Assembly: GCA_012032475.1 (NCBI GenBank)
Contig: JAAUSY010000005.1
Span: 1 to 57,347, forward strand
Length of the DNA: 57,347 nt
DNA from: Chloroflexaceae bacterium
GTDB taxonomy: Bacteria; Chloroflexota; Chloroflexia; Chloroflexales; Chloroflexaceae
Reading direction: 5' to 3'
Of the stretch, positions 5,175-52,924 are shown piece by piece. The notes under the pieces are model-generated. The model was not told the DNA's origin. It searched no databases and saw only the letters and a list, made by a program, of their open reading frames with translations. Made by a program: the position numbers and the translations under genes. Positions within the stretch are counted from its first letter, which is position 1. The number at the start of each line of letters is the position of its first letter.

Positions 5175-6472
5175 TCATTGTGGCTTGAACCCATGAGGCC
5201 AGCGGGTCGTTTCGTCATATTGCACCCCGCTCATGTCCGCCTCAGTTACCTTCACACCGAGGGACTTGAGCAGGTTTCCCAGGCTCATATTGGACCAGTC
5301 GACCAGGTCCGGAACACTCCACGCGGGCATATCACGGAGCATCTTCCGGTCTTCTTCCACTCCCAGGGCGTGGAGCAGGGCAACCTGAGACACCCCGATG
5401 GTTTTGAGAAGATCCGCGACATTCATCGCATACAAATCGGCGTCGGTGTAGGTTTTGCTTCCCCTGCCCTCCACTTCGAGCAGCACCACCCCGGTCAGGT
5501 CGGCCCCGCTCAGGTCCGTTCCGACCAACCGTGCCCCGATCAGGCGGGTTCCCGTCAGGGTGCTCATCTGCAAGTTTGCCCCCGTGAGGCTGGCATCGCT
5601 CAAATCGGCCTTGCTCAGGTCAGCCTGGTAGAGGTCGCCCCGCGCAGGTCCGCTTCGTTCATCCTGGCTCCCCGCAGGTTGACCATACGCAGGTCGGTTC
5701 CCCGCAGGTCCGCCGTGCGCAGGTCAGTTCCGCGCATATCCGAATGATGCAGGTCGGCTCCGGTCAGGACGCTCCCATACAGATACCCCCCGACCATCCG
5801 GCAGTCGCTCAAGTTGGCTCCGCTCAAATTGGCCTCATCCAGAAAAGCCGCGGTCAGGTCGGATTCAGCAAAGTTCGTGCCGATCATCCGGGCCTGACTC
5901 AACCCGACATTGAGCCTCGACCGGCTGAAGTCTGCCCCGACCAGACTGGCACTTTGCAGCACGACCGCATTCATGTTCGCCCCGGACATATCGGTCCGGT
6001 TCAGGTTGGCCCCTTGCAGGTTCGCCCCATTCAAGTTGGCGTCGTTCAGGTTGACTCCTATCAGGGTGGCATGCTGCAACTGCACCGCCGTCAGAATAGC
6101 CCCTTGCAAATTGGCCCTGGTCAGGTCGGCCTGCTGCAAATTCGCGCCATTCAGGTTGGCCCCCTGAAGGTTGGCATCAATAAACTGAGTCTTATAGAGG
6201 GTGGAGCCGTTGAAGTTTGCCAGGCTGAGGTCGGTGTGGCTCAACACCTGCCCGCTCAGGTCCAACCCGACACAACTGGGCGGGCACCGGGCCGGAAGAT
6301 ACTTCCAGGGTTCCCACAGCAAGGCCGCTTCCAGGGCCACCGCCAGCGCCAGCACCAGAATAACTTTGAGCAAGTGGCGTCCCTTTTTTTTCCTGGGAGG
6401 CGCTGGTGGTTGGGACTGGCCGGGGTTCTGGTGCGAATCGGTCGCGCTCATGGGGGGGGCCCTGGTGTTCAT
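5175..6472 (-). CDS. Membrane-anchored pentapeptide-repeat protein (frameshifted)
   Basis: The gene appears as two frames, 5615-6472 and 5175-5603, but a single missing base near 5625 explains the split. The repeat pattern continues in the second frame as LRGADLYQADLSKADLSDAS. The joined product is about 430 aa. It has a Lys-rich cytoplasmic N-terminus, a membrane helix (LLKVILVLALAVALEAALLW), CPPSC immediately outside the membrane, then a long A[DN]LxG pentapeptide solenoid. A helical C-terminal domain ends in GVQYDETTRWPHGF. The helix should place the solenoid outside the cytoplasm. It overlaps the next pentapeptide gene by ATGA, so they are coupled. Role unknown. Confidence 0.75.
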
Positions 6473-7470
6473 TCCTCTTCTTCTAAAAAAATGGCGGTTG
6501 AGGGAATTTCAAAGTCGTCGCTTTCGGGCCAGCGGGTCTGGCGGTCATAGGTCACACCGGCAAAGTCGGCGGGGCAGCAAAGCAACTGGTCCAGGTCGTT
6601 GAGGCTCAGTTCTGAGAGGGCAGGGTCGGTCAGCACACTGCGTTCGTTGATCTGGCTCCGCCTCAGTCTGGTGCCGTGCAGGTTGGCCCCACGCAGGTCG
6701 GCCCCGGCCAGGTTGGCCCGGACCAGAGTAGCCCCTTCCAGGTTGGCTTCCCGCAGCGTGGCGGCCAGGTCCGCCCCGATCAAGCTGGCCCCACTCAGGT
6801 CTGCTTGCGTCAGGTCAGACCCGAACAGGCTCACGTAGGAGTTCAACGTGGCTCCTTTCAAGCGGGTTCCTCGCATCAGGGCCCCGGCCATGTCGGCCCC
6901 ACTCAGGGTTGCCCCACTCAAATCGGTTCCGGACAGGTTGGCCGAAGCTAGCCGGGCCCGCCGCAGGTTGGCCCCGCGCAGGTCCACCCCACTCAGGTTG
7001 ACCCCTTCGAGCTTGGCCCGCTCCAGGTTGACTGCCGTCAGACGCACCCCGGTCAGGTCTATTCCAGTCAGGTCGGCCCCGCTCAGGTCCGCGCCAATCA
7101 AGATGGCTCCATCCATCGTCGCGCCCGTCATCCGCGACTGGCGCAGGTCCGTCCCGATCAGGATGGCATTGGTCAGGATCGCATTTTGCAGATCCGTGTC
7201 AACCAGGGTCGCATTGCTCAGGTCGGTTCCGGACAGGTTCGCATGGCTCAGGTCCGCCCCGCGAAAATTGGCATCGATCATGCTCATACCACTCAGGTCG
7301 TCGCCGCTCAAATCCCGCCCCATCATGTCGGAGCCAAGGCAGTTCGGCGGGCATTTGTCGGCATATCCCGCCCAGTTTGAACGGATGACCATGAACAGTG
7401 GCACAAAGGCCAGCACCGAAAGCGAAAAAATCGTCACCCATTTCAGGGCGATGGTGATAAACCTGCTCAT
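6469..7470 (-). CDS. Membrane-anchored pentapeptide-repeat protein
   Basis: About 333 aa. The N-terminal membrane helix (ALKWVTIFSLSVLAFVPLFM) is followed by CPPNCLGSDMMG and then by roughly 25-30 tandem pentapeptides (ADLSG type) forming a right-handed beta-helix. The C-terminus is GVTYDRQTRWPESDDF plus an acidic tail. It is paralogous to the downstream gene over the helix, the CPPxC motif and the TRWP ending. The start at 7470 puts Met directly before the helix; an in-frame ATG at 7524 gives a less likely extension. Function unknown; a scaffold or interaction surface at the membrane is an inference. Confidence 0.8.
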   Translation of the reverse strand: MSRFITIALKWVTIFSLSVLAFVPLFMVIRSNWAGYADKCPPNCLGSDMMGRDLSGDDLSGMSMIDANFRGADLSHANLSGTDLSNATLVDTDLQNAILTNAILIGTDLRQSRMTGATMDGAILIGADLSGADLTGIDLTGVRLTAVNLERAKLEGVNLSGVDLRGANLRRARLASANLSGTDLSGATLSGADMAGALMRGTRLKGATLNSYVSLFGSDLTQADLSGASLIGADLAATLREANLEGATLVRANLAGADLRGANLHGTRLRRSQINERSVLTDPALSELSLNDLDQLLCCPADFAGVTYDRQTRWPESDDFEIPSTAIFLEEEE

Positions 7471-7584
7471 AAGAAGCCCTGTTCCGGTGCCCAGGTAGCC
7501 CGCCCTCCCACCGGGTTCGCCCACCGGTTCCCAACCTGGTGGGAGGTGCGGTCCGAATTCACCACCCAGGCATTGGCGAACCTG

Positions 7585-8226
7585 CTACTGAACGGCTTTG
7601 AGCACCTCAAGCACTGCTGCCATATCCTGCTCGGCTGCCTTCTGGATGGCCTGAACGATATAGCTTCGCCGCTCCTCCTCCGAAAACAGCAGGGGAGCCG
7701 AGATGGGTTCTGAGACAAGGCCCTGCTCCACGAGCTTTGGAAACATCTTCTGCGTGAGGTCCTGATATTTCCCGGACATCGGGGCTTCGCGCCACTTCTG
7801 AAAGACCCCAAGCGCTTTGATGTGGTCCTGGGTCTGGTCGGCCTGCCAGTAGGACAGGCAATAGAGCAACACCGTGGCTTCGAGCGCTCGCTTGAGGGTC
7901 GGGTCGCTTGCCAGGCTCGCATCCGTCAGCCAGGCCAGGTCAAAGTTGGCGTCCTTGCAAAAGTCGGCGACCTTCCCCGTAAATGCCGCCAGGTCTCTGT
8001 CCGGAAGCCCTGCTATCCAGGCGGCAAAGCTGCGAGCATCCTCTGGCAACTTCAGGTAGATGGGTTCTTTCTCTTCCAGCGAGCTACTCGTGACCCAGGT
8101 TTTGAACTGCTGCGCCAGTTCTTCGCCAGTAACGGCTTTCTTCCCCCGCTTGAAGATGTCGGTCAGAGCGCCCGTCACGCGGTTGATGCCGGTTTTCTTC
8201 ATGACTGATTGGACCATCATAGTCAT
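7585..8226 (-). CDS. Hypothetical helical protein, 213 aa
   Basis: Not recognised. A soluble, predominantly helical protein without signal peptide or membrane segment. It has a basic N-terminus (DIFKRGKKAVTGEELAQQF), a Trp/Asp-rich middle and an amphipathic C-terminal helix. It lies upstream of the two pentapeptide-repeat genes on the same strand with a gap of about 115 nt, so it is plausibly first in their operon. The ribosome-binding site is weak. Confidence 0.6.
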   Translation of the reverse strand: MTMMVQSVMKKTGINRVTGALTDIFKRGKKAVTGEELAQQFKTWVTSSSLEEKEPIYLKLPEDARSFAAWIAGLPDRDLAAFTGKVADFCKDANFDLAWLTDASLASDPTLKRALEATVLLYCLSYWQADQTQDHIKALGVFQKWREAPMSGKYQDLTQKMFPKLVEQGLVSEPISAPLLFSEEERRSYIVQAIQKAAEQDMAAVLEVLKAVQ

Positions 8227-8910: not shown

Positions 8911-10038
8911 CTATGGGGTTTCAGGGATGGCTTCGAGGGTAGCAAGCGGCAGCGGGTTGAGTGTGTCGGTGAGCGGCTCGGTGGGGTCAGCCAGCAGGCT
9001 CCCGGAAAGCGGCAGCACCACCGGGGCGTTGTTGGGCACCAGCATGGCCCGGATGTTTGGAGACAGCTTGTTGATGTACTGGTAGGTGAGCAGTTCGGAG
9101 TTTTGCGACAGGGCAATGTTGATGAGTTGCAGTGCCTGCGATTCGGCATCTGCTTCTATCAAACGGGCATCGGCGCGGGCCTGGGCCTCAATGACGATGG
9201 CGGTCGCCCGCGCCTCGGCGAGTGTCTGGATGCGGCCGGCCTCACCCTGGGCCAGGAGGCGAATTTGTTCGGCTTCGTATTTGCGCTCTTCCTGTCCCTG
9301 CTCTGCCACCTGCTTTTGCTCGACCGACGCTCGATATTCCGGCGAGAAATCAATGTTGCGGAGCACAAAGGCGTTCATATTGAACCCTTCTTCTTCGAGA
9401 ATTTCCCCCAGTTCGGTGTTCAATTCGCGTTCCAGGTTCGTCCGCTGGATACTATTCACCTCGTTCACGGTGTATTTGGCAACCAGGGAGCGCACCAGGC
9501 CACGCGTCCTGGCCCGCACCAGGTCCTCGCGGTATCGGCTTTGCCAGTTGATGTGGACACGAACGACCTGTTCGGAGTCCACTCGGAAGATAATGGAGCA
9601 ATCAATAATCACCACCTGCCCATCTTTGGTTCGGGCATGGATAGCATCGCTCCCGACCACTTCGCCTTCGATGGGGTTGCTCGACATGGTATAGGTCTGC
9701 CAGTAGATGGGGTAGATCATGGCTCGTTCGGCCAGTGGGACAACAAAGCGCAGGCCAGAACGCAGGGGATATTCGCGGTAGCCTTTGGGTGCCAGGGCAG
9801 ACACCACGACCGCGGTCTCCTGGGGGGCGATGAAAACCAGGCTGGCGCTCAGGAAGGTGAGACCCATGGGGATGAGCAGAAACCCAAGCACCCGAAACGA
9901 CACGATGTTGATGAGGGTCTGTCTGATGCCGTGTTTCTTGATGCTGTTGGACAGCGAGAGCGCCCCGATGATACCAAAGAGTAGCCACACGGAGGCGGTG
10001 ATAATATCGAGAAAAGTGTTTATGCTTACAGTGCCCAT
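8911..10038 (-). CDS. SPFH/Band 7 domain membrane protein
   Basis: A stomatin/prohibitin/flotillin-type scaffold of the membrane. Two N-terminal hydrophobic segments (about residues 10-28 and 47-67) precede the SPFH domain, recognised by FIAPQETAVVV, RSGLRFVVPLAERAMIYPI, DGQVVIIDCSIIFRVD and RGLVRSLVAKYTVNEV. A long Ala/Glu-rich coiled coil follows (EQGQEERKYEAEQIRLLAQG to ARADARLIEADAESQALQL). The ending is Pro/Thr-rich. It is monocistronic, and no NfeD partner is next to it. Confidence 0.85.
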   Translation of the reverse strand: MGTVSINTFLDIITASVWLLFGIIGALSLSNSIKKHGIRQTLINIVSFRVLGFLLIPMGLTFLSASLVFIAPQETAVVVSALAPKGYREYPLRSGLRFVVPLAERAMIYPIYWQTYTMSSNPIEGEVVGSDAIHARTKDGQVVIIDCSIIFRVDSEQVVRVHINWQSRYREDLVRARTRGLVRSLVAKYTVNEVNSIQRTNLERELNTELGEILEEEGFNMNAFVLRNIDFSPEYRASVEQKQVAEQGQEERKYEAEQIRLLAQGEAGRIQTLAEARATAIVIEAQARADARLIEADAESQALQLINIALSQNSELLTYQYINKLSPNIRAMLVPNNAPVVLPLSGSLLADPTEPLTDTLNPLPLATLEAIPETP

Positions 10039-10185: not shown

Positions 10186-10293
10186 CTATGCGCCTTTGGG
10201 AGCAGCCGGGGCTTCGTTCGGGCTGCTTCCGGTGCCAGCAGAGATGACCAGACCCAGGTAGAGTCCGGCCTTGATTCTGGTTTTGACTTTCAT
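10186..10293 (-). CDS. Short peptide P1 of the KVxTxxKAG family (35 aa)
   Basis: Encodes a 35-aa peptide beginning MKVKTRIKAGLYLGL and ending in a Pro/Ala-rich tail (APAAPKGA), with no Cys. GGAG lies 7 nt before the ATG and a 15-bp palindrome (10318-10332) lies 25 nt upstream. The first ten residues match peptides P2 and P3 on the other side of the ABC transporter gene. Nearly all codon differences between P2 and P3 in this block are silent, which argues for selection on the peptide. It could be a small exported or modified peptide; no modification enzyme is adjacent. Confidence 0.6.
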   Translation of the reverse strand: MKVKTRIKAGLYLGLVISAGTGSSPNEAPAAPKGA

Positions 10294-10317
10294 GAAAACA
10301 CTCCATCGTTCATTGTC

Positions 10318-10332
10318 TATACGCTGCGTATA
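10318..10332. promoter_or_regulatory. Palindrome upstream of P1 (operator candidate)
   Basis: TATACGC-T-GCGTATA is a perfect 7-1-7 palindrome, 25 nt upstream of the P1 start codon. Its minus-strand right half contains TATAGA, which could serve as a -10. Position and symmetry fit a repressor site over the P1 promoter. Confidence 0.45.
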
Positions 10333-10438
10333 ATCTTCCGGGAGAACACAGGATGAACGAGACGACTGTCTTGCGAGAATGGGGCGAAACCAGTGATGTT
10401 GCAGAGCGATAGACGCCATAGTTCTGGCCTGCCGCGGT

Positions 10439-10475
10439 GTTGGATGAGGGGATTTTGAAAACCCCCTCATCCAAC
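10439..10475 (-). terminator. Strong hairpin after the ABC transporter gene
   Basis: A 13-bp perfect stem (GTTGGATGAGGGG at 10439-10451 with its complement at 10463-10475). The 11-nt interior has a further TTTT/AAAA pairing. It lies 70-110 nt past the ABC stop codon and before P1, separating the two transcripts. It lacks a following U-run on the minus strand. Confidence 0.6.
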
Positions 10476-10546
10476 GATAGTTATATCACAAAACCCCGGA
10501 TTGATCAATACGTCTGTCGCCTCACATCCGTCACCCCACGTCCCCA

Positions 10547-12712
10547 TTACGGGTGAGCAATGACCAGCAGGGTCGGGGCGCGGTTCAGGACACACTGGAG
10601 CGCCCGTTGCAGGTTTTCCGGGTCGAGCGCGGCAAAGCTCTCGTCCAGCACCATGAAATCGGCCTTCTGGAGGAGCGCCCGGGCGATGTAGAGCCGGCTG
10701 CGTTCCCCGTGCGAGAGCTGCCAGCCACTTTCCCCCACCATCTGGAACAGCCCGGCGGGCATTCGGTCCAGCAGTTCCCCCAGGCCAAGTTCGCGGCACA
10801 CGGCCTCGGCCTCGGCGAGGTCTTCGGGCGAGGGCGGCCACTGCCGCCCCATGAGCAGATTAAAAGCAAAGGTTTCGGTGAGCACGTGGTTTTCGTGAAA
10901 CTGCGGGGCAGCTACCACGCGCCGCCGCCATTCGGCGCTGCCGAGCGTCTGCCGGTCGAACCCGCGCAGCAGCAGCAGCCCGGATTCTGGGAGCCGAAGG
11001 CCCGTCAGGATTGCGGCAAGGGTTGATTTGCCTCCCCCGGAGGGTCCTTCCAGCAATATCCGGTCTCCCTGCTGTATCTGGAGGCTGCACCCGTGCAGCA
11101 CGGGCTGAGCGCGGTTCTGGTAGCGAAACACGAGGTCACGCGCTATCAGGAGCGGTTGGCCGCGGTCGGGTTCGTGCTGGTTCAGGCTGGAGAGCAGCGA
11201 GCCATCCACGCTCCGCTGGTCTCTGGGGCGAGCAGCAGCGTGGTAGAGGGGCGCAATCTGCTGCCAGGCAATCAGCAGGTTGACCACACTTTGCACCCCG
11301 CCTACCAGGCTTTCGAGCGCCTGATACGCGAGGATGATGCCTCCCAGGCTGATGGCAAGTTTTTCTGGCGAGGCCGGCATGAAGGCGAAGCTAGAGACAA
11401 AGCCGGCAAGCCCGACGATAAACCAGCCCCGTACGATAGCGGCACGGATGGTGAGACCAACCCGGTCCAGCCGGGTGGAGAGCTTCAGGTAGTGCGACAG
11501 AATGCGGTCTTCTTCGTCGTGCCAGTGCGCCCGGTCCTCCTGCGCCAACCGCGTGCGGTGCCCGACCATGCGTTCAACCAGGTCGTTGGTCATTTCGCGG
11601 TAGGAGGCCACCCAATCGCGGCTGTTTCGGTAGTATTGCCAGCCGAGCACGACGGTGAGGATCACCCACCCGACGAACAGCAGGGCGTGGACCGCTCCCC
11701 CGGCCCCCAGGGCCAGCACCACCGTAGCCGTGACCAGCCCGATCAGGCCAATGACCGCCCGAAACCCACCATCCAGGGTGAGCATCTCCACCGCCTCGGA
11801 TTCCATCACCCGCCCCAGGAATTGCCCGGCTCCCTGGTGGCGGGTCTCTTCAGGCTCAAGCTGGAGCGTACCATACATCAGCCGCATCTTGAACAACGCC
11901 CCGGCCATGGTGGCGAACGCATTTTGCGACCAGGTACCGAGCAGTTGAAAGGGTATCCTGGTTGCCAGAATGAGCAGCCAGGCCCAGAGCCAGGCCCATT
12001 CGAAATAGCCCTGTAAGGCGCTTCGCCCGATGACCCACCACGCGACCACATCCAGAAGCTGTTGCACCACATAGGCTACGGTGAAGAGGAAGGCAAAGGT
12101 GGGGATACGGGCGTGGCGAATCTGCCCGGCCATGTGGGTGCCCGGCGGGAGGCGGATAAGCCAGCACCCTTCGATGGGCGTGGTGCCAAACCACTGCCGA
12201 AGGAGCACGGCGCGGGTGCGAGCGTGGCGGTGTTCGGGTATCCCGGCGTCTTTCAGAACCCGTGCGATGATTTCCAGAAACGGGGCTTCGATATGGCGAC
12301 CGAGCGTTCTGGTTACCAGCGAGAGCCGAATCCGACGGGAGGACAGGCTGGGGGTGATGACGGTCAGGTGCCGGCGGCTGCCTTTGAGCAGGACGAGGAA
12401 GTGGGGTTCGCCAGTCTCGGTGGTGCCCGGCATACGCAGCAGGGCCGGGCCGGCGCTCCGCACCAGTTGGTCCATATCGGCATAGGTCGAAACGACCGGC
12501 TCGACCTCCAGCCCAAGCCGGATGGCAGTGGTTTCGAGCCACGGTTCAAAGACGCCAGCCTCGGACCGGGCCAGGTGCGTGGGAGGAGGGGGGATTTCGA
12601 CGGGACGGGACAGAAAGCCGCTCTTGCGGGCGACGATTTCGATAGCCTCGGCTGCTCTTGAGGCAGGCCAGAGGAGCGTTTCAACCCTGGGAGTGCTTCC
12701 GAACCGTGGCAT
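10547..12712 (-). CDS. Peptide-exporter-like ABC transporter with degenerate C39-like domain
   Basis: A 721-aa ABC half-transporter. Residues 1 to about 190 resemble the C39 peptidase domain of bacteriocin exporters (GPALLRMPG, then PHFLVLLKGSRRHLTVITPS). The position where the catalytic Cys is expected reads LLWPASRAAEAIEIV, without Cys, so it is probably a non-cleaving substrate-binding domain. A six-helix membrane domain follows (about 210-490). The ATPase has GPSGGGKSTL, LSHGERSRLYIARAL and FMVLDESFAALD. The protein stops right after the H-loop (VIAHP), with almost no C-terminal tail. The ATG is fixed by an in-frame TGA 18 nt upstream. It is flanked by peptide genes P1, P2 and P3, its likely cargo. 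Confidence 0.8.
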   Translation of the reverse strand: MPRFGSTPRVETLLWPASRAAEAIEIVARKSGFLSRPVEIPPPPTHLARSEAGVFEPWLETTAIRLGLEVEPVVSTYADMDQLVRSAGPALLRMPGTTETGEPHFLVLLKGSRRHLTVITPSLSSRRIRLSLVTRTLGRHIEAPFLEIIARVLKDAGIPEHRHARTRAVLLRQWFGTTPIEGCWLIRLPPGTHMAGQIRHARIPTFAFLFTVAYVVQQLLDVVAWWVIGRSALQGYFEWAWLWAWLLILATRIPFQLLGTWSQNAFATMAGALFKMRLMYGTLQLEPEETRHQGAGQFLGRVMESEAVEMLTLDGGFRAVIGLIGLVTATVVLALGAGGAVHALLFVGWVILTVVLGWQYYRNSRDWVASYREMTNDLVERMVGHRTRLAQEDRAHWHDEEDRILSHYLKLSTRLDRVGLTIRAAIVRGWFIVGLAGFVSSFAFMPASPEKLAISLGGIILAYQALESLVGGVQSVVNLLIAWQQIAPLYHAAARPRDQRSVDGSLLSSLNQHEPDRGQPLLIARDLVFRYQNRAQPVLHGCSLQIQQGDRILLEGPSGGGKSTLAAILTGLRLPESGLLLLRGFDRQTLGSAEWRRRVVAAPQFHENHVLTETFAFNLLMGRQWPPSPEDLAEAEAVCRELGLGELLDRMPAGLFQMVGESGWQLSHGERSRLYIARALLQKADFMVLDESFAALDPENLQRALQCVLNRAPTLLVIAHP

Positions 12713-12845
12713 GGGGTTGCTTCGGTATCAACTCAATTCAGCATAGGATTTCCCGTTCGCTCCACCAACTCGTCACACATTCATAGAGGGGCGCACGATG
12801 GCCCCCCTTTTCGAACCTATCGCTTCTTTTCTTTGCAGCCCGCCA

Positions 12846-12870
12846 GAAAGCGGACCGCACGGTCCGTTTC
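12846..12870 (-). terminator. Hairpin 3' of short peptide gene P2
   Basis: An inverted repeat, GAAAGCGGACCG (12846-12857) against CGGTCCGTTTC (12860-12870), with one bulged base and a 2-nt centre. It lies 24 nt past the P2 stop and about 130 nt ahead of the ABC gene start. It may terminate the peptide transcript or act as an operator. Confidence 0.4.
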
Positions 12871-12893
12871 CGGAGGCTGTTTCTGTCTTCCTC

Positions 12894-12938
12894 CTAGTAT
12901 CGCCTTCCACCGGCTTTGACATTCGTCCGCACCTTCAC
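12894..12938 (-). CDS. Short peptide P2 of the KVxTNVKAG family (14 codons, GTG start)
   Basis: Reads MKVRTNVKAGGRRY from a GTG start. Its upstream sequence, GGGGGTGA about 7 nt before the start, is nearly identical to that of P3. Codon differences from P3 in the KVxTNVKAG block are mostly third-position and silent (GTG/GTC, AAT/AAC). The gene is unusually short; in the next frame the reading stays open to 12773, so a frameshift may hide a product of about 55 aa. An extended -10 lies at 12993-13001. Confidence 0.4.
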   Translation of the reverse strand: MKVRTNVKAGGRRY

Positions 12939-12981
12939 GCCCGTTCACCCCCTTTCCCCGGCTCCCAGGTCACCGGACTGA

Positions 12982-13083
12982 TTATTGATAGGAGTATACC
13001 ACAGGTCCGGGCAAGGATTCACCATGCTTTCGGAATCCGTTGACTGCCTGCCAGCCGGCTTTGACGTTCGTCTGGACCTTCAA
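12982..13083 (-). CDS. Short peptide P3 of the KVxTNVKAG family (33 aa, TTG start)
   Basis: Starts from TTG with KVQTNVKAGWQAVNGF and continues through a polar, Gly/Pro-containing tail to a Tyr-rich end (VVYSYQ). AAAGGGGGTGA lies 6 nt before the start. It is the second of two consecutive peptide genes between the 66-aa membrane protein and the ABC transporter, all on one strand. No Cys. Function unknown; a substrate of the adjacent exporter is the simplest reading. Confidence 0.5.
   Translation of the reverse strand: MKVQTNVKAGWQAVNGFRKHGESLPGPVVYSYQ
12993..13001 (-). promoter_or_regulatory. Extended -10 element upstream of P2
   Basis: TGGTATACT on the minus strand, inside the 3' end of P3 and about 55 nt before the P2 start. 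The same nonamer occurs at 13457-13465 ahead of the 66-aa gene. Confidence 0.4.
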
Positions 13084-42754: not shown

Positions 42755-43291
42755 AGGCAACCTACTGGTTCCATGATACGGATCCAGTCTTCTCCTATTC
42801 TACCAGAATACCCAGAACCTTTCAATCCACGGTACGATGCAGCATTTGCACAATGGACCAATTTGCTTTAGAATCCCCCAGTCCTCCCCACACCCGCCTG
42901 TGCTCCCACCGCCAGAACCGGAGGAGGGGGCGCGTGTGCCATATTCTTAGAAAACTGTAACAATCCTGGAGATAGTTCGTTCCATGGGGGGAATAACAAG
43001 GACTGCCTCAGGTTTGCGGAAATGACCGTGTAACATGAGGTGGGCCGCGTCGTTACATGGGTGAGAAGAGACCTGGTGAACGGTAGCAATACCACGGCAG
43101 GAGCGGTCATTTTCCCCCTTGCCCGCACGGGGTACGGAAGAGATTTCGGCAAATCAGGACATGCGGTTGGATAGTATCGTCGGGCGAGTCATCAGGAGAG
43201 GAGAGACCTTCCCAGGGTTCTTTCTCGTTATTTTCAGAACAGCTAGAGCACCGCAACGTTGGAGATTGGAAAAGTAAGGAGGTTTTTTATC
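42755..43291. other. Divergent intergenic region before the giant surface gene
   Basis: No supported protein in about 540 bp. It holds the response-regulator promoter on the minus strand, and at its right end the strong TAAGGAGG ribosome-binding site (43275-43282) of the giant gene. I see no confident promoter for the giant gene; TAGTAT near 43167 is a weak candidate. Confidence 0.5.
42797..42825 (-). promoter_or_regulatory. Promoter for the response regulator-galE pair
   Basis: -35 TTGAAA (42820-42825), 17 bp, and -10 TAGAAT (42797-42802) with a TGG extension. It lies about 45 nt before the start codon. Confidence 0.65.
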
Positions 43292-46200
43292 ATGAGGAGA
43301 TTGCAGTCTGACGGCAAGCTATCCTTGCCGCGTTCTAGCAGGATGCTATCCCTCGCCCTCATTGTGGTATTGTTGGCAACCTACCTCGTTGCCTGGCCGC
43401 AAGCGGCGCTTGCCGACCTCCCCTCAATTGACTGGTTTCACCAGTGGGGGGGCGCAGCGACCGACGACCGGGTCAACGATGTGGCTGTCAGTACCAGCAG
43501 AGCCTACTTTGTTGGGACCGAGGGTGGGAATATTTTCCTGAAAGCCGTGAATATTGATGCAACTGGCTCCGTTGAATGGACTGTCACCAGCTCCGGAGCC
43601 GGTGCTGACCAGGGCCGCGGGGTTGCTGTAGACAGTTCCGACGATTACGTCTACGTCACCGGTAGCTTCCGAAACGCCCTGACGTTTAGTGGGTGCCCCA
43701 CCGTGAATGCTACCAACTACGCTGACGTGTTCGTGGCACAATTTGACACCTTTGACGGCGACTGCGAGTGGGTCAGGACCATGGGTGGTGCGGACGACGA
43801 CACCGGGCGAGACATTGCTATTGATAGCGATGAGGGCATTGTCTACGTCACGGGTGATGCCATCGGGTCGCAGCCATTCGAAGACTTCGATGGCAGCACC
43901 GTCGCCAACTTCGCCTTCCCAGGCACCCAGAACGTCTTTCTGGCCGCCCTGGATGACGCTGGCAGTTTTGCCATGAACTGGGACCGAACGAAGATGATGG
44001 GCAGTTCGGGTGGGGCCATCGGCTATGGCGTGGCAGGAGATGGCGAACATGTCTACCTCGCCGGGTCATTCGTCGGCACCAACGCCGACTTCGACACCAG
44101 TCCCCTCGTTCGGCCGGGCTTCAGCAGCGGCGGCAGCGGCACGAGTGAAGATGCCTTCGTCGCCAAATTCGCCCCCAGCGGTGCCTACGTGGACGCCTGG
44201 AAACTGGGTGGCGGCGGCAGCGGCGATGCCGACGTGGCCTACAGCATTGCCCTCGACAACGACTACATCTACACCACGGGTTTCTACCAGAGCAACAATG
44301 CCAACTTCGCCGGAATAACCCTGCCATCCATTGGCACCGGCGGCTCCGACATCTTCGTCTCCAAGCTGCCCAAAGACAGCGACGGCACGGACGGGATGGC
44401 CTGGGGTATGGGTGGCAACGGCGCGAATGCCGCATTTGGCATCTCTGTGGATAACCAGTACATCTACACCGCGGGTTACTTCCAGGGCACGGTAGACTTC
44501 AACCCCGGCGCCGGAACGTTCAACCTCACTTCGAGCGGCGGCGAGGATGTATTCGTTGCCTCACTGAACAAGGCCGATGGCTCCTTCCCCACCAACGGCG
44601 CAAAGAAGTTTGGCGGAACGCTCAATGACCAGGGCCGCACGATCTTTGCCCGTGGCCTCGATGACATCTACCTGGGCGGCTCGTTCCGTGGCACGGCCGA
44701 CTTTGAGGGGCCAGAAACTTCCGCCGGCGGCGAAGATGGCTACGGTCTCCGCATGGGCAAAACGGTCATTGCCGTCTTTGCAGGTGACAATGCTGAAGAA
44801 GATACGGAAGACGGATACTTCACCGTTGCAATGGTCGGGGCCCCTTCGACCAATGCTCAGGTCATTAACTTCAGCATCAGCGGAACTGCGGAAGACAATG
44901 GGGTAGACTACGACCTTGACTTCGGCGCGAACGTCACGGACTGGAGCTACAACCCTGCAACGAATACGGGGAGCTTCAAGGTTACCAGCGGCGAATACAC
45001 CGCTGAGATCTGGGTAGAGGTCGTTGCGGATAATGACGAAGAGACCCCCGACGAGACCGTGATCTTTACCATTGACTCGATCACTGACCCGACGAGCGTC
45101 TTCACCCTTAGCTCCAGCAACAAATCCGCTGAGATTCTGATTATTGACGACGACGCCAAGGGCTTTGAGACGCCCGCGGTTCCGACAACCCCCATTCAGG
45201 AGGAAGATCCGGACCCGGCCCCGACGCTTGAATATACCTACAACCTGGTATTGAAGAGCAACCCCAGTGGCACCGCAGTGATTCGCGTCACCTCGGACAA
45301 CGGGCAACTGCAATTCAAGCAGGGTGCAAACTGGGTTTCCAGCATTGATTTGTCGTTTGCCAGCGTGATAGGCCCCCTGTCGGTGACCTACCGCGCCACC
45401 CCGGACAACGACCACGAGGACAACCCCCACACCTCCACCATCAGCCACACGGCGGTGTTCGGGTATGATGGGGCGGAGCCGCTCTACCTCCCCATCGAAA
45501 TCATAGACAACGACCCCATCAGCCTCACGATGGAGTTGGGGGACAATCCGGGCGTGCCTGTAGACCTGGATACTTCGTGCAACATCAGCGAGACGGAAGT
45601 CTTCAGCTATCTCCTGAAGCTCAACACGAAGCCAGATGCCGCCACCCAGATTCAAGTCTTCACCGACGCCCCCTCGGAAGTGGAACTCAGCACCACCGGC
45701 GCTGACCCCTGGGCCAGTTCCGTCACGGTCGAATTCCAGCCCGACGAGTGGGACGAAGGCAAATACATCTACGTGCGCGGAATCAATGACGGCGTGGTTG
45801 AAGGCGGCTTCGACACCATCCACGTCAAGCACAACGGCGTTGGTCTGCCAGGAAGCGAATATAACGGGGTATCGTTCGTCCCCGACTTCGACATCACCTG
45901 TAAGATCAACGACATCAATGAGAAGGACGTGTTCTTCACGCGCTCGCCAGCGCTCACCGACACGCTCCATATCTACGAAAACCCGGCCCATCCTCAGCAC
46001 ACGGCCAACCTGAGCGCCACCCTGGGGAGCAAGCCGACGGCAAATACGAACATCACCATTGGTTCGCAAAACACCACCGACCTCAGGTTTAGCAAGACCG
46101 GCACCGGCGACTGCTCAACCTGGTCTAGCACCGTGGTGCTGAACTTCACCACCACAACCTGGAAGACCGAGCAGCCGCTCTATGTCTGTGCCCTCCAGGA

Positions 46201-49200
46201 CGGAATGATCGAAGCCGACCCGGAATATGACTACATCACGGCGGCGGGCAGCGGCACCGGCTCCGACTACAACGGCTTCAGCAACACGACCGCGGTCAGT
46301 GTCACGATCCACGAGGGCGATACCCCCGGCTTCAACGTGACCAATCTGTCGCCTATCACCGGCTCCTACCCGTGGCTGGTCTACGAAGACCCGCTCTCAG
46401 AAGACACCCCGGTGCTCCAGTACAAGCTGTCCCTCACCACCGATCCGGGTGGGGCAGGAACCGATGTGGTCATTGGCGGGTGGAACTCCGGAACTCCTAC
46501 GGCTGGCGAAGCCGACGAGACCGACTTCGAATTTGCCGACGACCTGGCTGGCCCGTGGAGCCAGTATTTGACCGTACACTTCAGCGCTGGCCCCAGTGGG
46601 AGCTGGAAGACCGGCCAGTTCATCTACGTGCGCGGCTATGATGACGAACAGTACGAGGGTGATACTCCGCTGGACTTCCCCGTCAATGAGAGCGGCATCA
46701 TCAGCCACACCGCAGTTGGTGGCACCTACGACGGCGAAACGACCACCCAGAAGGGGGCAGGCGGAGCCGATGGCGACTTCGAAGTCTACATTCAGGACAA
46801 CGACCCACTCGGTCCCAAGTTCTGGCTGCCGCCGGACTGGTCGCCCATCGTGGACATTGACGACTCCGGGGTCTGGGTAGACGAAGGCGATGTTGGCCTG
46901 ACAAAGCGCATCACCGTCACTCTGGCAAGCGATCCGGGGGATACAAACGAGGTGGACCTCACCCTGACCTCCGCGGAGGGGCATGTGGAATTCAGGTGCC
47001 CTGCTTCGGTTCCTGTCGCTGAATGTGACGATCCGGGCGTCTGGAAAGGTCCGGACCTGGGCGACACAGACCTGGTCCTCACTCTGGGCAACAACGCCAC
47101 GGTGGACAACTGGAGCAAAACACTTGGCGGTATCCCGCTTGATATCCGCGCCGTAGATGATGGCGACGCCGAGGGCACCCCGCACGATGGCGTTCTGGCA
47201 TTTGAAATTGGCGCTTCTACAGCACCATACAACGAAGTTAACGGCGATACGGTCAATCTGACGGTCAACATCACCGACGACGACCAGATCAGCGTCAGCC
47301 TCTTCGAAATGTCCCCCATCTCGGACACACTGGAGGACGGCGACGTGCTCTACCTCCACGAAGCCCTGGGGCACATGTACAACACCGTCTACTACACCAT
47401 GACCCTCGACAGCATGCCGGGTGGCTCGGTGACCATCGAAATCACCTCCACCAACCAGCAGCTTCAGTTCAGCACCACGGGCAACGACGGAACCTGGGCC
47501 AGCAACCTCCCCTACGTCTTCGACGCCGGCAACTGGTACGACCCGCAGGACGTCTACGTGCGCCCGGTGCCCGATGGCAAGAAAGAAGCCAACCCGCACC
47601 CGTCGGAAATCGTCCACCGGCTGGCGAGCGGCGATGGCAGCGTCTACACGCCGGCCAACTTCGAAGAACTGCGGCTCACCGTCAACATCACCGACGATGA
47701 CGAAGTGGGCATGGAGACGTGGGAAGTGCATCCTGGCCTGGTGTCACCACCTGGCATCATGACGAACAATACTACTCAGGTGTTCTACTACTCTGGCGAC
47801 ACCGGTAAGGACTTCACGGAAACCAACGAGCCAGGGATGTCGTCCGAGACGCTCGTCTACACGATGTGTCTCACCAGCCAACCCTTCGACAGCGACGGCC
47901 AACCGACGAACGTGACGATCCAGGTCACCAGCTACGGCGGGCAGATTGAGTTCAGCGAGACCGGGAATGTCGGCTCGTTCGAAGACTCGCTGCTGTTCTC
48001 GTTCGGCCCCGGCAACTGGGACGCCTGCCCCACCATCTACGCCCGCGGCAAGCTGGACGGAGTGACGACCATCAGCTCCGGGCCATTCCCGACCACAGAT
48101 GACGTTGATGACTACATCGTCCATTCAGTGGTTGTGGATGACACCGGCGACCCTGAATATCAAAACATGGCTGCCCAGTACATCGAAATGTTCATCCTGA
48201 ACGGCGACGAGCCAGGGGTGAATGTTGAGGCCACCGACCCCATCTCACTCAGCGAGTCGCTGCAAGACGGCATCGAACTCCAGGCGCAGCTTGGCACCGC
48301 TGAAGGTCCCGCGAAGGTCGTCGTCTGGTCGGAAAACCACCAGGTAGAGATCAGCCTCGACGGTATGACCTGGTCCTTCACCCAGACGCTGGAATTCTCT
48401 GCCGACTGGGAATCGAAGGTGCCATTCTACATCCGGGCCCTCGACGACCAAATCTACGAAGGAGGGCCGGGGGTCTACACCTACTACGCGGATGAACTCC
48501 GCTTCCGCGGACACGACGACAACGCCAGCGACGACTACAAAGGCGATGACTTCTTCACAAACGACGATTTGAACATCAGCATCGAAGACAACGATGAAGC
48601 TGGCATCAAGCTGCTTTACGGTCCCGGCCACCCGGCTGAAGGCGAAGGAGTGGTGGACCCCCTCGGTTTCACCGAAATCTACTCCGACCCCATCGCCGTC
48701 CAGTGCTTCTATGTGGCCTCGACCATCGAAGTCACACAGGATATGGATATCGTCCTCTGGAGTCCCAATGGGCAGATGCAGTTTAGCAAAGAAGCCGACG
48801 CCCCCGACTCCCAGTGGAAGCGCTATCCATTCCCGGCTGACACCTACGTCATCACCATGACCGAAGACAACTGGGGCTACAACCAGGGACTGCCACAAAT
48901 GCCGCAGGTCGTCTGTCTGCGGGCGTGGGACGACAGCGCCGAAGAACCGTCTCCGCACTCCGATTTGATCCGGTGGAAATCCAAAAACGTAAGTACTCCT
49001 TCGATCTTCGAGGGACTCAATGGAACGGCCGCCGAGGTTGAGATAGAGGACAACGACAGCGAAGACGTCCGCTTCCGCGACAAGGACAACAACCTGCTGC
49101 CAGGCAACGTCCTGGGAGACTACTTCTACGAAGAGGGACAAGAACCAGCCGAGTGCTACAAGCTGAGCCTGACCAACCCACCAACACCCGGCTCCGGCCA

Positions 49201-52200
49201 GACGGTCGAAATCAACGTGGACGGTGGCGAGCAGGTGCGCCTGAGCACCGACGGCGACGGCACCCCCGAAGACAACCCCGAGTCGACGTGGGTCAAGTCG
49301 CTCGACTTCATCTTTGGCGAAGCGAACGAATGGCAGTGGGTCTGTGTGCGGGCCGTGGATGACGACCTCAAGGAAGACACCATCCACGACGGCATCATCC
49401 AGCACTCCGTGGTGTCGGGCACCAACACGACCTACACCGACTACGTGGACAAACTCGACCCGGGTCAGCAATACACGCTGCTCCCCGGCCATGTGACCGT
49501 CCACATTGTGGACAACGACGCTATCAGCATCCTGGTCAACGAAGTTGACCCGGTGAGCCGCGCCATTGACTCCACCAGCGTGGTGAAAGAGGAGTGGGCC
49601 GATCCCGACGCCTTCGACTTCTTCACCATCCGACCGCGCACCGTGTCGGGCGACCCGGTCAAGATCGTCATCACCCCGACCGAACAACTGCAACTGAACC
49701 GCGAGGGCTTCCCCTCACCGGGCGCAGGTCAGCCCATTGAGCTGAACTTCCCGGCTGGTCTGGGTGGTGTCATCTCCAGGACCATCGAAATCCGCGCCAA
49801 CGACGACTTTGACGTGGAAGGGCCACACGAAGGCTACCTCTACTTCTCGGTCTACAGCAACGGCGTCTACGATGGAATCGAAGACTTCTTCTTCAACGAC
49901 ACCATCACACGCACGGGCATCCTGACGGTTTCGATTGTGGATAACGACACCACGGCGGTGCTCATTGACCTGCCCGACGGCGTGTCGAACGAAATAGACG
50001 AAGCCGGCACAACCATCTATTCCTACACGGTGAGACTGCAAGGTCAGCCCACGAGCCGGGTCAATGTGGGCCTCGACTTTTTTGACGGATCGCAAATCCA
50101 GATGAGCACCGATGGCCTGAACTGGAACACCACCGGACACATTGACATCGCGTTCACCACGTCCCACGACGTGCCAGGTGGCTGGAACATGCCGCGGTCT
50201 CTCTACGTCCGCGCCATCCAGGACGATATCGCTGAGGGCGACCTGCCCTACCTCATCGTCCACACCGCAACCAGCGACGACCCGCAGTACAATCACGGCG
50301 ATGGAGTGGTCTACATCGTTGAGGGCGTCACAACCGATCCGGGAGTGACCGGAGACGTGCCGGTGGTTGTCGTTGACGATGACCTGGCAGGCGTGACCAT
50401 CACACCGCAACTGCTGACCCTGATGGAAGATCGCAGCGGTATCTACGAGGGTTCCTACACGGTGGTGCTCAACGACCCGCTGCCGGCCGGCAGCGTCGTC
50501 CAGATTGATATCACCCCGGCCACCGGCTCCGAAGGGCAGGTGCTCGTGGACGATGGCAGCGGAACCTTTACCAACACAGGCGTGCTTATCTTTGACGACG
50601 CCAACCCCTGGAACGTTGCCCAGACCGTTCGGGTCCAGGTGGTGGACGACGACATCCCAGAAGGCAGCCCGCACCTTGCCACCCTTGAGCACACCATAAC
50701 CAGCGACAGTCCTCTCTACGATGCGCTCGACCTCGACAGTGTGGAAATCAGCATCACTGACAACGACACCGCGGGGATGATCATCGTGGACCCGGACACC
50801 GGCCTCCCGCTGACGGATGCGGAACTCAAAGCCCTCCTGAAGACCGACGAGGACGGTACACCGATTGAAGTCTGGGTGCGGCTCACCAAGCAGCCCACCG
50901 CAGATGTGGGCGTCTCCATCACCAGCGCCGATTGCGGCGAGGGGGTCATCAACGGCTCCTGCGACCCGACCACCCTGACCTTTACCACTGGCAACTGGAA
51001 CGTCCCACAGATGTTCGTCATCACGGGGGTTCCCGACGACGACGAGACGGAAGGCCCCTACACCTTCTTCGATGTGAACCTGGTCTCATCCAGCCTCGAT
51101 GAAGACTTCGAAGGGCTGACCCGAACGCTCATCGTCGAAAACGCGGATACCACCAGTGGCGCAGGCTTCACGGTCTTCCCGCTGAGCATCACGACGGACG
51201 AAGACGACCCGCTGAACGACCCGAACGTTGGCAGTGTGGCAACCTTCACCATGACCATCCAGAAGGCTCCAACCGCGGATGTTGAGGTCCGAGTGGCTGA
51301 TTACAACCAGTCCGCGGGCACCATCAGCCCCACCGTGGTCATCTTCTCGGCGGGGATGACGGAAACGAAGCTCTTCGAAGTCACTGGAACGGACGACGGC
51401 TTCACCCCGAACGACGATATCGTCTACACCATCACCTTCAGTGATGCGATGAGCAGCGATATCAACTACGGTGGTCGCCGCGTACCGTCGGTTGAGGTGA
51501 CCCACAAGAACAACGACTTCGTGGCCGATGGAACGAACCTGTCCATCCAGGTCGAGGTGGAACCAGGCGTCTACGGTCCGGGCGACCCCCTGACCTACAC
51601 CATCACGTACAAGAACAAAGGGCCGGACGATGCCACCGGTGTGGTCATCACCGCGACCATTGATCCGAACCTTGTCAGCTTCGACCCGGACAAGAATCCT
51701 GGCTGGACCTGCGATATGGCAACGGGCATCTGCACCTACGAAGTTGGCGATGTGCCAGCCGGCGCTGACGCCCAGACCATTTCGCTGGTCGTGGATATCC
51801 GCGACGATGTCAAGTCAGGGACCATGACGACGCGTTTCGGGATAACCGACGACTCCGGAACGGAGAACGACCCGGATGACAACTACCCCACCGTAGACAT
51901 CATCATCCAGGGCACCGACCAACCGGACCTGTGGGTCCAAATCACCGGCAAGACTGGTATCCCGCTGACGTTCGGCGAGGTGATGACCGTCTCTCTGGCC
52001 TACGGCAACCGGAGCACCGCCACCGCGGATGGCGAAATGGTCTACATCCAGGTGCGGTCCGACGCAGACCTGAGCCTCAGCCAAACCGACGAAACCACTG
52101 GCTCACTGCAAGCTCCGGCCTGGAACTGCCAGCAAGACGGCAGTGAGTGGGTGTGTCGGCTGGACGTTGGCGACCTGCCGGTCGGTGAAGAGGGTGAAAC

Positions 52201-52924
52201 CTCCTTCCAGATTCTCGTTCCCGAAGGCCAGGAGAACGCCTTCGTCCGGGCGACCATCCGGGAGGACAAAGCTCTCACGTCCGACCTGAACTTTGAGGAC
52301 AACACCGACCGGTGGGACCTGACGGCAGGACCTTGGCAGTCACACACCTTCTTACCTGCTCTCTTCAAGCAGGAAGATACCGGCCCGGTCGTTGAAACCG
52401 ATTCGGACCTCCAGATTACGAACGTCTGGTTCAGCCCGACCAACCCGACGGCGGACCAGTCGGTGGACATCTTCGTTGAGGTGAGCAACCTGGGCACCGG
52501 GCCAACCACCCGCGGCTTCTGGGTTGACCTGTACATTGACCCATCCACCGTGCCGACCGTCAACCAGCGCTGGAGCGACATCGAAATCTGCGACCCGGCC
52601 GACCAGCGTGACTGCCTCGGTATCGCCTGGAGGGTTGAGGGCATTATCCAGGCAGGTGGCAAGGAAATCCTGATCTCCAGGGCGAAGTCCACCTACGGTG
52701 GGCCGGAAATCGGCTACCCCGACCAGGATGTGGACGACCAAGGCAACCCGATCCTGCGGGCCGAGTGGCCTGGTTCCTTCCCCGCTGGCACCAACAACCT
52801 CTACGTCCAAGTGGATAGTTGGGGCGGTCCGGAGGGGACAGCGAACCGAGAGTTCGGGGCCATGATCGAACTCAACGACGACAACAACGTGTCCCACACG
52901 TCCATCGGGCCGCTGAGCCAGTAG
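43292..52924 (+). CDS. Giant secreted propeller/Calx-beta/DUF11/CARDB protein (3,210 aa)
   Basis: A secreted surface protein. A Sec signal peptide (LSLALIVVLLATYLVAWP, cleavage near ALA-D) is followed by seven SBBP-type propeller repeats (e.g. GRGVAVDSSDDYVYVTGSF, AFGISVDNQYIYTAGYF) over about residues 45-500. About 15 Calx-beta-like repeats of 130-170 residues follow, each ending in an acidic IxDND/ITDDD turn, so calcium binding is likely. A DUF11 domain (LTYTITYKNKGPDDATGVVI) and a CARDB-like domain (SVDIFVEVSNLGTGPTTRG) lie at the C-terminus. No sorting signal or membrane anchor is seen. TAAGGAGG 9 nt upstream fixes the start. Confidence 0.88.
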   Translation: MRRLQSDGKLSLPRSSRMLSLALIVVLLATYLVAWPQAALADLPSIDWFHQWGGAATDDRVNDVAVSTSRAYFVGTEGGNIFLKAVNIDATGSVEWTVTSSGAGADQGRGVAVDSSDDYVYVTGSFRNALTFSGCPTVNATNYADVFVAQFDTFDGDCEWVRTMGGADDDTGRDIAIDSDEGIVYVTGDAIGSQPFEDFDGSTVANFAFPGTQNVFLAALDDAGSFAMNWDRTKMMGSSGGAIGYGVAGDGEHVYLAGSFVGTNADFDTSPLVRPGFSSGGSGTSEDAFVAKFAPSGAYVDAWKLGGGGSGDADVAYSIALDNDYIYTTGFYQSNNANFAGITLPSIGTGGSDIFVSKLPKDSDGTDGMAWGMGGNGANAAFGISVDNQYIYTAGYFQGTVDFNPGAGTFNLTSSGGEDVFVASLNKADGSFPTNGAKKFGGTLNDQGRTIFARGLDDIYLGGSFRGTADFEGPETSAGGEDGYGLRMGKTVIAVFAGDNAEEDTEDGYFTVAMVGAPSTNAQVINFSISGTAEDNGVDYDLDFGANVTDWSYNPATNTGSFKVTSGEYTAEIWVEVVADNDEETPDETVIFTIDSITDPTSVFTLSSSNKSAEILIIDDDAKGFETPAVPTTPIQEEDPDPAPTLEYTYNLVLKSNPSGTAVIRVTSDNGQLQFKQGANWVSSIDLSFASVIGPLSVTYRATPDNDHEDNPHTSTISHTAVFGYDGAEPLYLPIEIIDNDPISLTMELGDNPGVPVDLDTSCNISETEVFSYLLKLNTKPDAATQIQVFTDAPSEVELSTTGADPWASSVTVEFQPDEWDEGKYIYVRGINDGVVEGGFDTIHVKHNGVGLPGSEYNGVSFVPDFDITCKINDINEKDVFFTRSPALTDTLHIYENPAHPQHTANLSATLGSKPTANTNITIGSQNTTDLRFSKTGTGDCSTWSSTVVLNFTTTTWKTEQPLYVCALQDGMIEADPEYDYITAAGSGTGSDYNGFSNTTAVSVTIHEGDTPGFNVTNLSPITGSYPWLVYEDPLSEDTPVLQYKLSLTTDPGGAGTDVVIGGWNSGTPTAGEADETDFEFADDLAGPWSQYLTVHFSAGPSGSWKTGQFIYVRGYDDEQYEGDTPLDFPVNESGIISHTAVGGTYDGETTTQKGAGGADGDFEVYIQDNDPLGPKFWLPPDWSPIVDIDDSGVWVDEGDVGLTKRITVTLASDPGDTNEVDLTLTSAEGHVEFRCPASVPVAECDDPGVWKGPDLGDTDLVLTLGNNATVDNWSKTLGGIPLDIRAVDDGDAEGTPHDGVLAFEIGASTAPYNEVNGDTVNLTVNITDDDQISVSLFEMSPISDTLEDGDVLYLHEALGHMYNTVYYTMTLDSMPGGSVTIEITSTNQQLQFSTTGNDGTWASNLPYVFDAGNWYDPQDVYVRPVPDGKKEANPHPSEIVHRLASGDGSVYTPANFEELRLTVNITDDDEVGMETWEVHPGLVSPPGIMTNNTTQVFYYSGDTGKDFTETNEPGMSSETLVYTMCLTSQPFDSDGQPTNVTIQVTSYGGQIEFSETGNVGSFEDSLLFSFGPGNWDACPTIYARGKLDGVTTISSGPFPTTDDVDDYIVHSVVVDDTGDPEYQNMAAQYIEMFILNGDEPGVNVEATDPISLSESLQDGIELQAQLGTAEGPAKVVVWSENHQVEISLDGMTWSFTQTLEFSADWESKVPFYIRALDDQIYEGGPGVYTYYADELRFRGHDDNASDDYKGDDFFTNDDLNISIEDNDEAGIKLLYGPGHPAEGEGVVDPLGFTEIYSDPIAVQCFYVASTIEVTQDMDIVLWSPNGQMQFSKEADAPDSQWKRYPFPADTYVITMTEDNWGYNQGLPQMPQVVCLRAWDDSAEEPSPHSDLIRWKSKNVSTPSIFEGLNGTAAEVEIEDNDSEDVRFRDKDNNLLPGNVLGDYFYEEGQEPAECYKLSLTNPPTPGSGQTVEINVDGGEQVRLSTDGDGTPEDNPESTWVKSLDFIFGEANEWQWVCVRAVDDDLKEDTIHDGIIQHSVVSGTNTTYTDYVDKLDPGQQYTLLPGHVTVHIVDNDAISILVNEVDPVSRAIDSTSVVKEEWADPDAFDFFTIRPRTVSGDPVKIVITPTEQLQLNREGFPSPGAGQPIELNFPAGLGGVISRTIEIRANDDFDVEGPHEGYLYFSVYSNGVYDGIEDFFFNDTITRTGILTVSIVDNDTTAVLIDLPDGVSNEIDEAGTTIYSYTVRLQGQPTSRVNVGLDFFDGSQIQMSTDGLNWNTTGHIDIAFTTSHDVPGGWNMPRSLYVRAIQDDIAEGDLPYLIVHTATSDDPQYNHGDGVVYIVEGVTTDPGVTGDVPVVVVDDDLAGVTITPQLLTLMEDRSGIYEGSYTVVLNDPLPAGSVVQIDITPATGSEGQVLVDDGSGTFTNTGVLIFDDANPWNVAQTVRVQVVDDDIPEGSPHLATLEHTITSDSPLYDALDLDSVEISITDNDTAGMIIVDPDTGLPLTDAELKALLKTDEDGTPIEVWVRLTKQPTADVGVSITSADCGEGVINGSCDPTTLTFTTGNWNVPQMFVITGVPDDDETEGPYTFFDVNLVSSSLDEDFEGLTRTLIVENADTTSGAGFTVFPLSITTDEDDPLNDPNVGSVATFTMTIQKAPTADVEVRVADYNQSAGTISPTVVIFSAGMTETKLFEVTGTDDGFTPNDDIVYTITFSDAMSSDINYGGRRVPSVEVTHKNNDFVADGTNLSIQVEVEPGVYGPGDPLTYTITYKNKGPDDATGVVITATIDPNLVSFDPDKNPGWTCDMATGICTYEVGDVPAGADAQTISLVVDIRDDVKSGTMTTRFGITDDSGTENDPDDNYPTVDIIIQGTDQPDLWVQITGKTGIPLTFGEVMTVSLAYGNRSTATADGEMVYIQVRSDADLSLSQTDETTGSLQAPAWNCQQDGSEWVCRLDVGDLPVGEEGETSFQILVPEGQENAFVRATIREDKALTSDLNFEDNTDRWDLTAGPWQSHTFLPALFKQEDTGPVVETDSDLQITNVWFSPTNPTADQSVDIFVEVSNLGTGPTTRGFWVDLYIDPSTVPTVNQRWSDIEICDPADQRDCLGIAWRVEGIIQAGGKEILISRAKSTYGGPEIGYPDQDVDDQGNPILRAEWPGSFPAGTNNLYVQVDSWGGPEGTANREFGAMIELNDDNNVSHTSIGPLSQ

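Follow-up and report, generated by a model that had tools for sequence, protein, structure and literature searches.

The window, a 57,347-nucleotide stretch of a Chloroflexaceae bacterium genome (assembly GCA_012032475.1, contig JAAUSY010000005.1, positions 1 to 57,347), carries three very short genes, P1, P2 and P3, which lie around a gene for an ATP-binding cassette (ABC) half-transporter, here named ABC2, and share the N-terminal motif K-V-x-T-x-[IV]-K-A-G. The three small genes were delimited by their open reading frames (ORFs), Shine-Dalgarno (SD) sequences and motif matches, while ABC2 was assigned from Pfam ABC_tran, hhalign, conserved motor motifs and genome-level association.

P1: 10186..10293, minus strand, candidate 35-residue precursor, MKVKTRIKAG followed by LYLGLVISAGTGSSPNEAPAAPKGA, with an ATG start, downstream of ABC2.
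ABC2: 10547..12712, minus strand, ABC half-transporter with a predicted catalytically dead C39-like N-terminal domain, ending just past the H-loop.
P2: 12894..12938, minus strand, candidate 14-residue precursor, MKVRTNVKAG followed by GRRY, with a GTG start, upstream of ABC2.
P3: 12982..13083, minus strand, candidate 33-residue precursor, MKVQTNVKAG followed by WQAVNGFRKHGESLPGPVVYSYQ, with a TTG start.

The full translations are MKVKTRIKAGLYLGLVISAGTGSSPNEAPAAPKGA (P1), MKVRTNVKAGGRRY (P2) and MKVQTNVKAGWQAVNGFRKHGESLPGPVVYSYQ (P3). A purine-rich, SD-like stretch precedes each ORF, namely GGAG for P1 and AAAGGGGGTGA for both P2 and P3, in agreement with the sequence-only reading, which had assigned an SD to all three genes and GTG or TTG starts to two of them. 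P1 is contained in a longer in-frame ORF (94 amino acids, with an ATG further upstream), and the short start was favored because of its SD and motif. When the 4.6 Mb genome was searched with a degenerate DNA pattern for the motif, the three minus-strand ORFs described at first proved to be its sole matches, all inside 3 kb, and the reversed pattern, used as a control in the same genome, gave none. Over the nine motif codons, P2 and P3 differ by three synonymous changes and one non-synonymous change, which bears out the view that their differences are mostly silent. No Pfam or NCBIfam family was matched by P1 or P3, the two peptides covered by the scan, P2 (14 amino acids) being below the scannable size.

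Conservation of the motif in relatives had been set beforehand as a test of the peptide family. Scanning one genome per species, from about 85,000 species, for ATG-K-V-x-T-x-[IV]-K-A-G, for which a handful of chance matches had been expected in advance, retrieved 55 stretches in about 45 motif-bearing genomes across several phyla, with Acidobacteriota, Chloroflexota, Gammaproteobacteria, Rhodoferax, Desulfobacterota-type lineages, Myxococcota and Planctomycetota among the taxa. Named strains among the carriers include Minicystis rosea DSM 24000, Rhodoferax lacus IMCC26218 and Methyloglobulus morosus KoM1. For the most part, the matches are short ORFs (14-60 codons) preceded by an SD and frequently arranged in tandem, and one Terriglobia locus (L125) holds 13 copies by a relaxed motif. 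Ribosomal protein L24 (L056) was discarded as a chance match, as were the matches at L029 and L062, which have no convincing SD and no ABC2.

The consensus over 108 distinct genes is M-K-[V/I/T]-[K/Q/R]-T-x-[V/I]-K-A-G, then a tail. Ala9-Gly10 is found in all 108 coding sequences with a regular expression that permitted A, G or S at both positions, an invariance that is informative mainly for the extra relaxed-motif copies, because KAG was fixed in the pattern by which most loci were retrieved. Conservation stops abruptly at residue 10, and the information is below 1 bit from residue 11 on, as expected of the leader plus variable core proposed from the window. Among 160 within-stretch paralogue pairs, some counted in more than one overlapping stretch, the ratio of non-synonymous to synonymous changes (pN/pS) is 0.198 in leaders compared with 0.76 in tails; silent changes thus prevail by far in the leader and not in the tail, which argues for purifying selection on the leader at the protein level and for almost none on the tail. 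Like the conservation in relatives, this comparison of silent and replacement changes had been named beforehand as a possible refutation, and the proposal withstood both.

The tails are hydrophilic and Gly-rich, with a median of 11 amino acids (46 of 112 distinct tails have eight or fewer), and between one and more than ten of them stand behind one leader in a genome. The tail SVNWG is present three times at L060, and in the multi-repeat precursors of L147 and L211 the leader-like motif recurs internally, sometimes as KGG. Tryptophan occurs in 29 of the 112 distinct tails, often singly and near the end, such as in SVNWG, SAAWGT, TVAWGE and PTGYPW (L125, L128, L046, L057 and others). Members of 60-61 amino acids in Anaerolineae and Desulfobacterota-type genomes (L121:8324-8509; L119:1268 and L040:2888, both minus strand) have a common CGCxxRxxxLN-like motif in the tail; in these, the leader precedes a conserved small protein. 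Two P-type ATPases of 757 and 750 amino acids (L136:5902-8175 and L136:13442-15694) start with M[KR]VRTH[VI]KAGEF, with ABC2 in the same locus.

The link between the peptides and this particular ABC gene, suggested by their proximity in the window, holds across phyla. At a presence threshold of E<=1e-55, 35 of the 45 motif-bearing genomes contain ABC2, with a single copy in nearly all of them, while among 301 Chloroflexota ABC2 is present in three and the motif pattern in one. In 396 Acidobacteriota, the pattern occurs in four genomes and ABC2 in ten, and all four pattern-positive genomes are among the ten; with the seed genome left out, three of three pattern-positive genomes fall among the nine of 395 with ABC2 (hypergeometric probability about 1e-5). 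Of 52 stretches examined, 24 have a peptide gene no more than 5 kb from ABC2 or from ABC1, the partner transporter described below, and in 22 it is on the same strand.

The N-terminal domain of ABC2 aligns to the C39 domain of ABC1 (hhalign, 95%) and gives weak fold matches to PCAT1. In the window's protein, no Pfam C39 match and no catalytic Cys were found, W15 being the sole invariant residue in the alignment, in keeping with the degenerate C39-like domain that had been recognized from the sequence; its kinship to C39 shows in the profile and in a weak fold similarity only. An IMG/VR scan with ABC2 gave no match, so the gene bears no sign of phage origin.

Neighborhood clustering pointed to a core of a HlyD-like adaptor, ABC1 and ABC2 (clusters 0, 1 and 2, adjacent in many loci), and all three are together in nine acidobacterial ABC2 stretches. 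ABC2 stands beside or is fused to ABC1 nearly everywhere, and ABC1 usually has an intact C39 peptidase, with an adaptor of HlyD type often adjoining. ABC1 matches the Pfam C39 peptidase PF03412 (E 4e-19), its model matches the peptidase domains of PCAT1, LahT and ComA, and the full set of Q10 (oxyanion), C16, H96 and D112 is present in 28 of 28 aligned sequences. ABC1 and ABC2 are next to each other at most loci, and three genomes (G022, G023 and G024) encode them as a fusion, which argues that they form a heterodimer. The degenerate-C39 ABC protein put forward as the exporter is therefore retained as a partner, though only as half of it, ABC1 and the adaptor standing beside it in most relatives. 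One adaptor (L018:5803-7047, minus strand) has a predicted N-terminus, VKAKTKIRGG, that resembles the leader, while the other adaptors do not. The C39 Cys is lost in the three fused genomes and in G016, and within the window's family, peptides are present in four of five genomes with an intact ABC1 C39 and in none of four with a decayed one; these counts, though small, lie in the expected direction. In the window's own genome, ABC1 is split into two pieces at the ends of two other contigs, with an intact QTSAMDCGPA site.

P1, P2 and P3 are probably precursors of short secreted peptides, in which a ten-residue leader would direct an exporter of C39-bearing ABC1 and ABC2 that cuts after Ala-Gly and exports the tail. 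The short ORFs would be translated, and residues 1-10 (MK[VIT][KQR]Tx[VI]KAG) would serve as an unusually short leader recognized by the ABC1/ABC2 pair, possibly bound as an extended strand, because of the alternating K-V-K-T-x-V-K pattern. Within the predicted heterodimer, ABC1 would combine an active C39 peptidase, a transmembrane domain and a nucleotide-binding domain, and ABC2 a dead C39-like domain with the same two further domains. The C39 domain of ABC1 would cut after Ala-Gly, the pair would export the tail, and in many diderm relatives the HlyD-like adaptor might carry it onward. Outside the cell, the tails would most likely act as signals and less likely as antagonists; the extreme shortness of the tails, their occurrence in several copies and the identical repeats speak, if weakly, for signals over pore-forming bacteriocins.

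Several observations weigh against this proposal. The motif-bearing genomes are mostly metagenome-assembled genomes (MAGs), about seven genuine-looking motif genomes have no ABC2 match at 1e-55, for which MAG incompleteness or another exporter may account, and the intact exporter of G026 has no peptide found with it. The assembly of the window's genome places ABC1 apart from ABC2, and a secreted core does not account for the leader tag on the two L136 ATPases. The leader also departs from the rules for double-glycine leaders, which have GG, GA or GS and hydrophobic residues at -4, -7 and -12 on a helix (PMC10885120): AG stands in 108 of 108 start-proximal motifs, and GG is confined to internal repeats such as those of L147; position -7 is K, Q, R or N, and there is no -12, so that only -4 fits; and ten residues are too short for an amphipathic helix.

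Some of these points would suit an alternative, which we consider unlikely, that KVKTxVKAG stays uncleaved and serves as a docking or targeting tag for C39-like domains, and that the small proteins act at or in the membrane, for example as transporter regulators or assembly factors. The same tag on the two ATPases beside the system, the misfit to the double-glycine rules and the dead C39-like domain of ABC2, as in HlyB, whose substrates stay uncleaved, are all consistent with such a tag. However, ABC1 keeps its full catalytic set in every aligned sequence, genomes with a decayed C39 have no peptides, and hypervariable tails of 4-8 amino acids in many copies per leader fit secreted products better.

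It is decidedly improbable that the peptides belong to a system of ribosomally synthesized and post-translationally modified peptides (RiPPs) of the NHLP/Nif11 type, in which an enzyme such as LanM would modify them and the NHLP transporter would export them. The logic of that exporter is alike in its three parts, with an adaptor, a cleaving ABC and a non-cleaving ABC (PMC2887384), and in a Terriglobales genome a LanM-like protein (DUF4135 and LANC_like; L124:7658-10927) adjoins Cys-free KxK[ST]xxKAG peptides, which might possibly represent a modified branch of the family. Nevertheless, the scores of ABC1 and ABC2 are 89-171 bits, far under the NHLP cut-offs of 709-853, the ten-residue leader is unlike the long NHLP and Nif11 ones, and that LanM-like protein was the only RiPP enzyme among the listed families in the 83 neighbor proteins scanned.

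Regulatory leader peptides of the ABC operon (attenuators or ribosome-arrest upstream ORFs) would suit the very short P2 and P3 just 5' of the ABC gene, but this very improbable reading was rejected on account of the arrays and downstream copies: P1 is found 3' of the ABC gene, further copies form arrays or lie far away on other contigs, the motif is internal in the multi-repeat proteins (L147, L211), and a conserved N-terminus with a variable C-terminus is the opposite of what an arrest peptide needs. Chance or non-coding repeats, to which the shortness of the ORFs and two rare start codons might point, have next to no likelihood in view of the conservation, the codon pattern and the genome-level association, and were refuted by the pN/pS and co-occurrence tests.

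Beyond the peptide genes and ABC2, further genes of the window recur in relatives, as listed below.

SPFH/Band 7 membrane protein: 8911..10038, minus strand, near ABC2 in several Chloroflexota loci (PF01145, neighborhood cluster 3).
213-amino-acid protein: 7585..8226, minus strand, of a family common to Chloroflexota loci of the system, with no Pfam match.
Pentapeptide-repeat protein with an N-terminal hydrophobic stretch: 6469..7524, minus strand, common to Chloroflexota loci (PF00805).
Second pentapeptide-repeat protein: 5615..6472, minus strand, with a 4-base overlap with the first (PF00805).

Such additions in the window and several Chloroflexota relatives comprise the SPFH protein, a protein of about 213-270 amino acids and pentapeptide-repeat proteins, joined in some cases by a P-type ATPase. 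These loci have no adaptor or a shortened one (cluster 13, 164-187 amino acids), a state that would fit a cell envelope with no outer membrane. Directly upstream of P3 (13526-17713, minus strand) lie genes for a MacB-type permease, an ATPase and a HlyD-like adaptor that contains a very long stretch resembling a coiled coil. These genes were kept out of the system because this gene set is not among the conserved neighbors of ABC2. Elsewhere in the window (43259-52924, plus strand), one 3221-codon ORF may encode a giant secreted protein, its N-terminus being signal-like.

More tentatively, the loci of the several phyla might together represent one secretion system of little-studied soil and freshwater bacteria, in which a ten-residue leader is bound extended rather than helical by a C39-bearing ABC1/ABC2 heterodimer that releases many peptides of 4-20 residues, which would serve as signals outside the cell. 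In the open-access literature, with subscription journals and preprints outside the search, no paper with the motif or tail strings and no description of the system was found, the literature retrieved on related systems being limited to NHLP and general reviews. If the proposal is true, Acidobacteriota, Chloroflexota, Myxococcota and several proteobacterial groups would hold an unrecognized source of ribosomal secreted peptides, whose genes ordinary annotation overlooks because they are only 14-60 codons long and for which the ten-residue tag is a simple search key. The C39 domain of ABC1 could then serve as a tag protease needing a very short recognition sequence, and the system would make peptide communication open to testing in phyla where hardly any is known.

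Compared with known systems, the non-catalytic C39-like domain of ABC2 and the HlyD-like adaptor resemble HlyB and its type 1 secretion, whereas the substrates here are tiny with a conserved N-terminal tag and the partner ABC1 has an active C39. The double-glycine or PCAT-AMS systems (PCAT1, LahT, ComA, class II bacteriocins, microcins) share the C39 fold and catalytic residues with ABC1, small residues at P2-P1 and V, I or L at -4; apart from the leader, they differ from the predicted heterodimer of ABC1 and ABC2 and from tails of often only 4-8 amino acids. The closest known system is the NHLP/Nif11 export trio of a TIGR03794 adaptor, a TIGR03796 cleaving ABC and a TIGR03797 ABC (Haft et al. 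2010, PMC2887384), whose authors considered the exporter more widespread than its known substrates (PMC2887384). It differs in that ABC1 scores 163-171 bits against the TIGR03796 cut-off of 853 and ABC2 93-123 bits against the TIGR03797 cut-off of 709, in that the ten-residue KxKTxVKAG leader ends in AG, not GG, and replaces nitrile hydratase (NHase)-like or Nif11-like leaders of more than 70 amino acids, and in that modification enzymes are mostly absent here and ABC2 retains a degenerate C39-like domain. Nevertheless, both have an adaptor, a C39-bearing ABC and an ABC without active peptidase, and in both, paralogous precursors share a leader, with hypervariable cores that follow a Gly motif.

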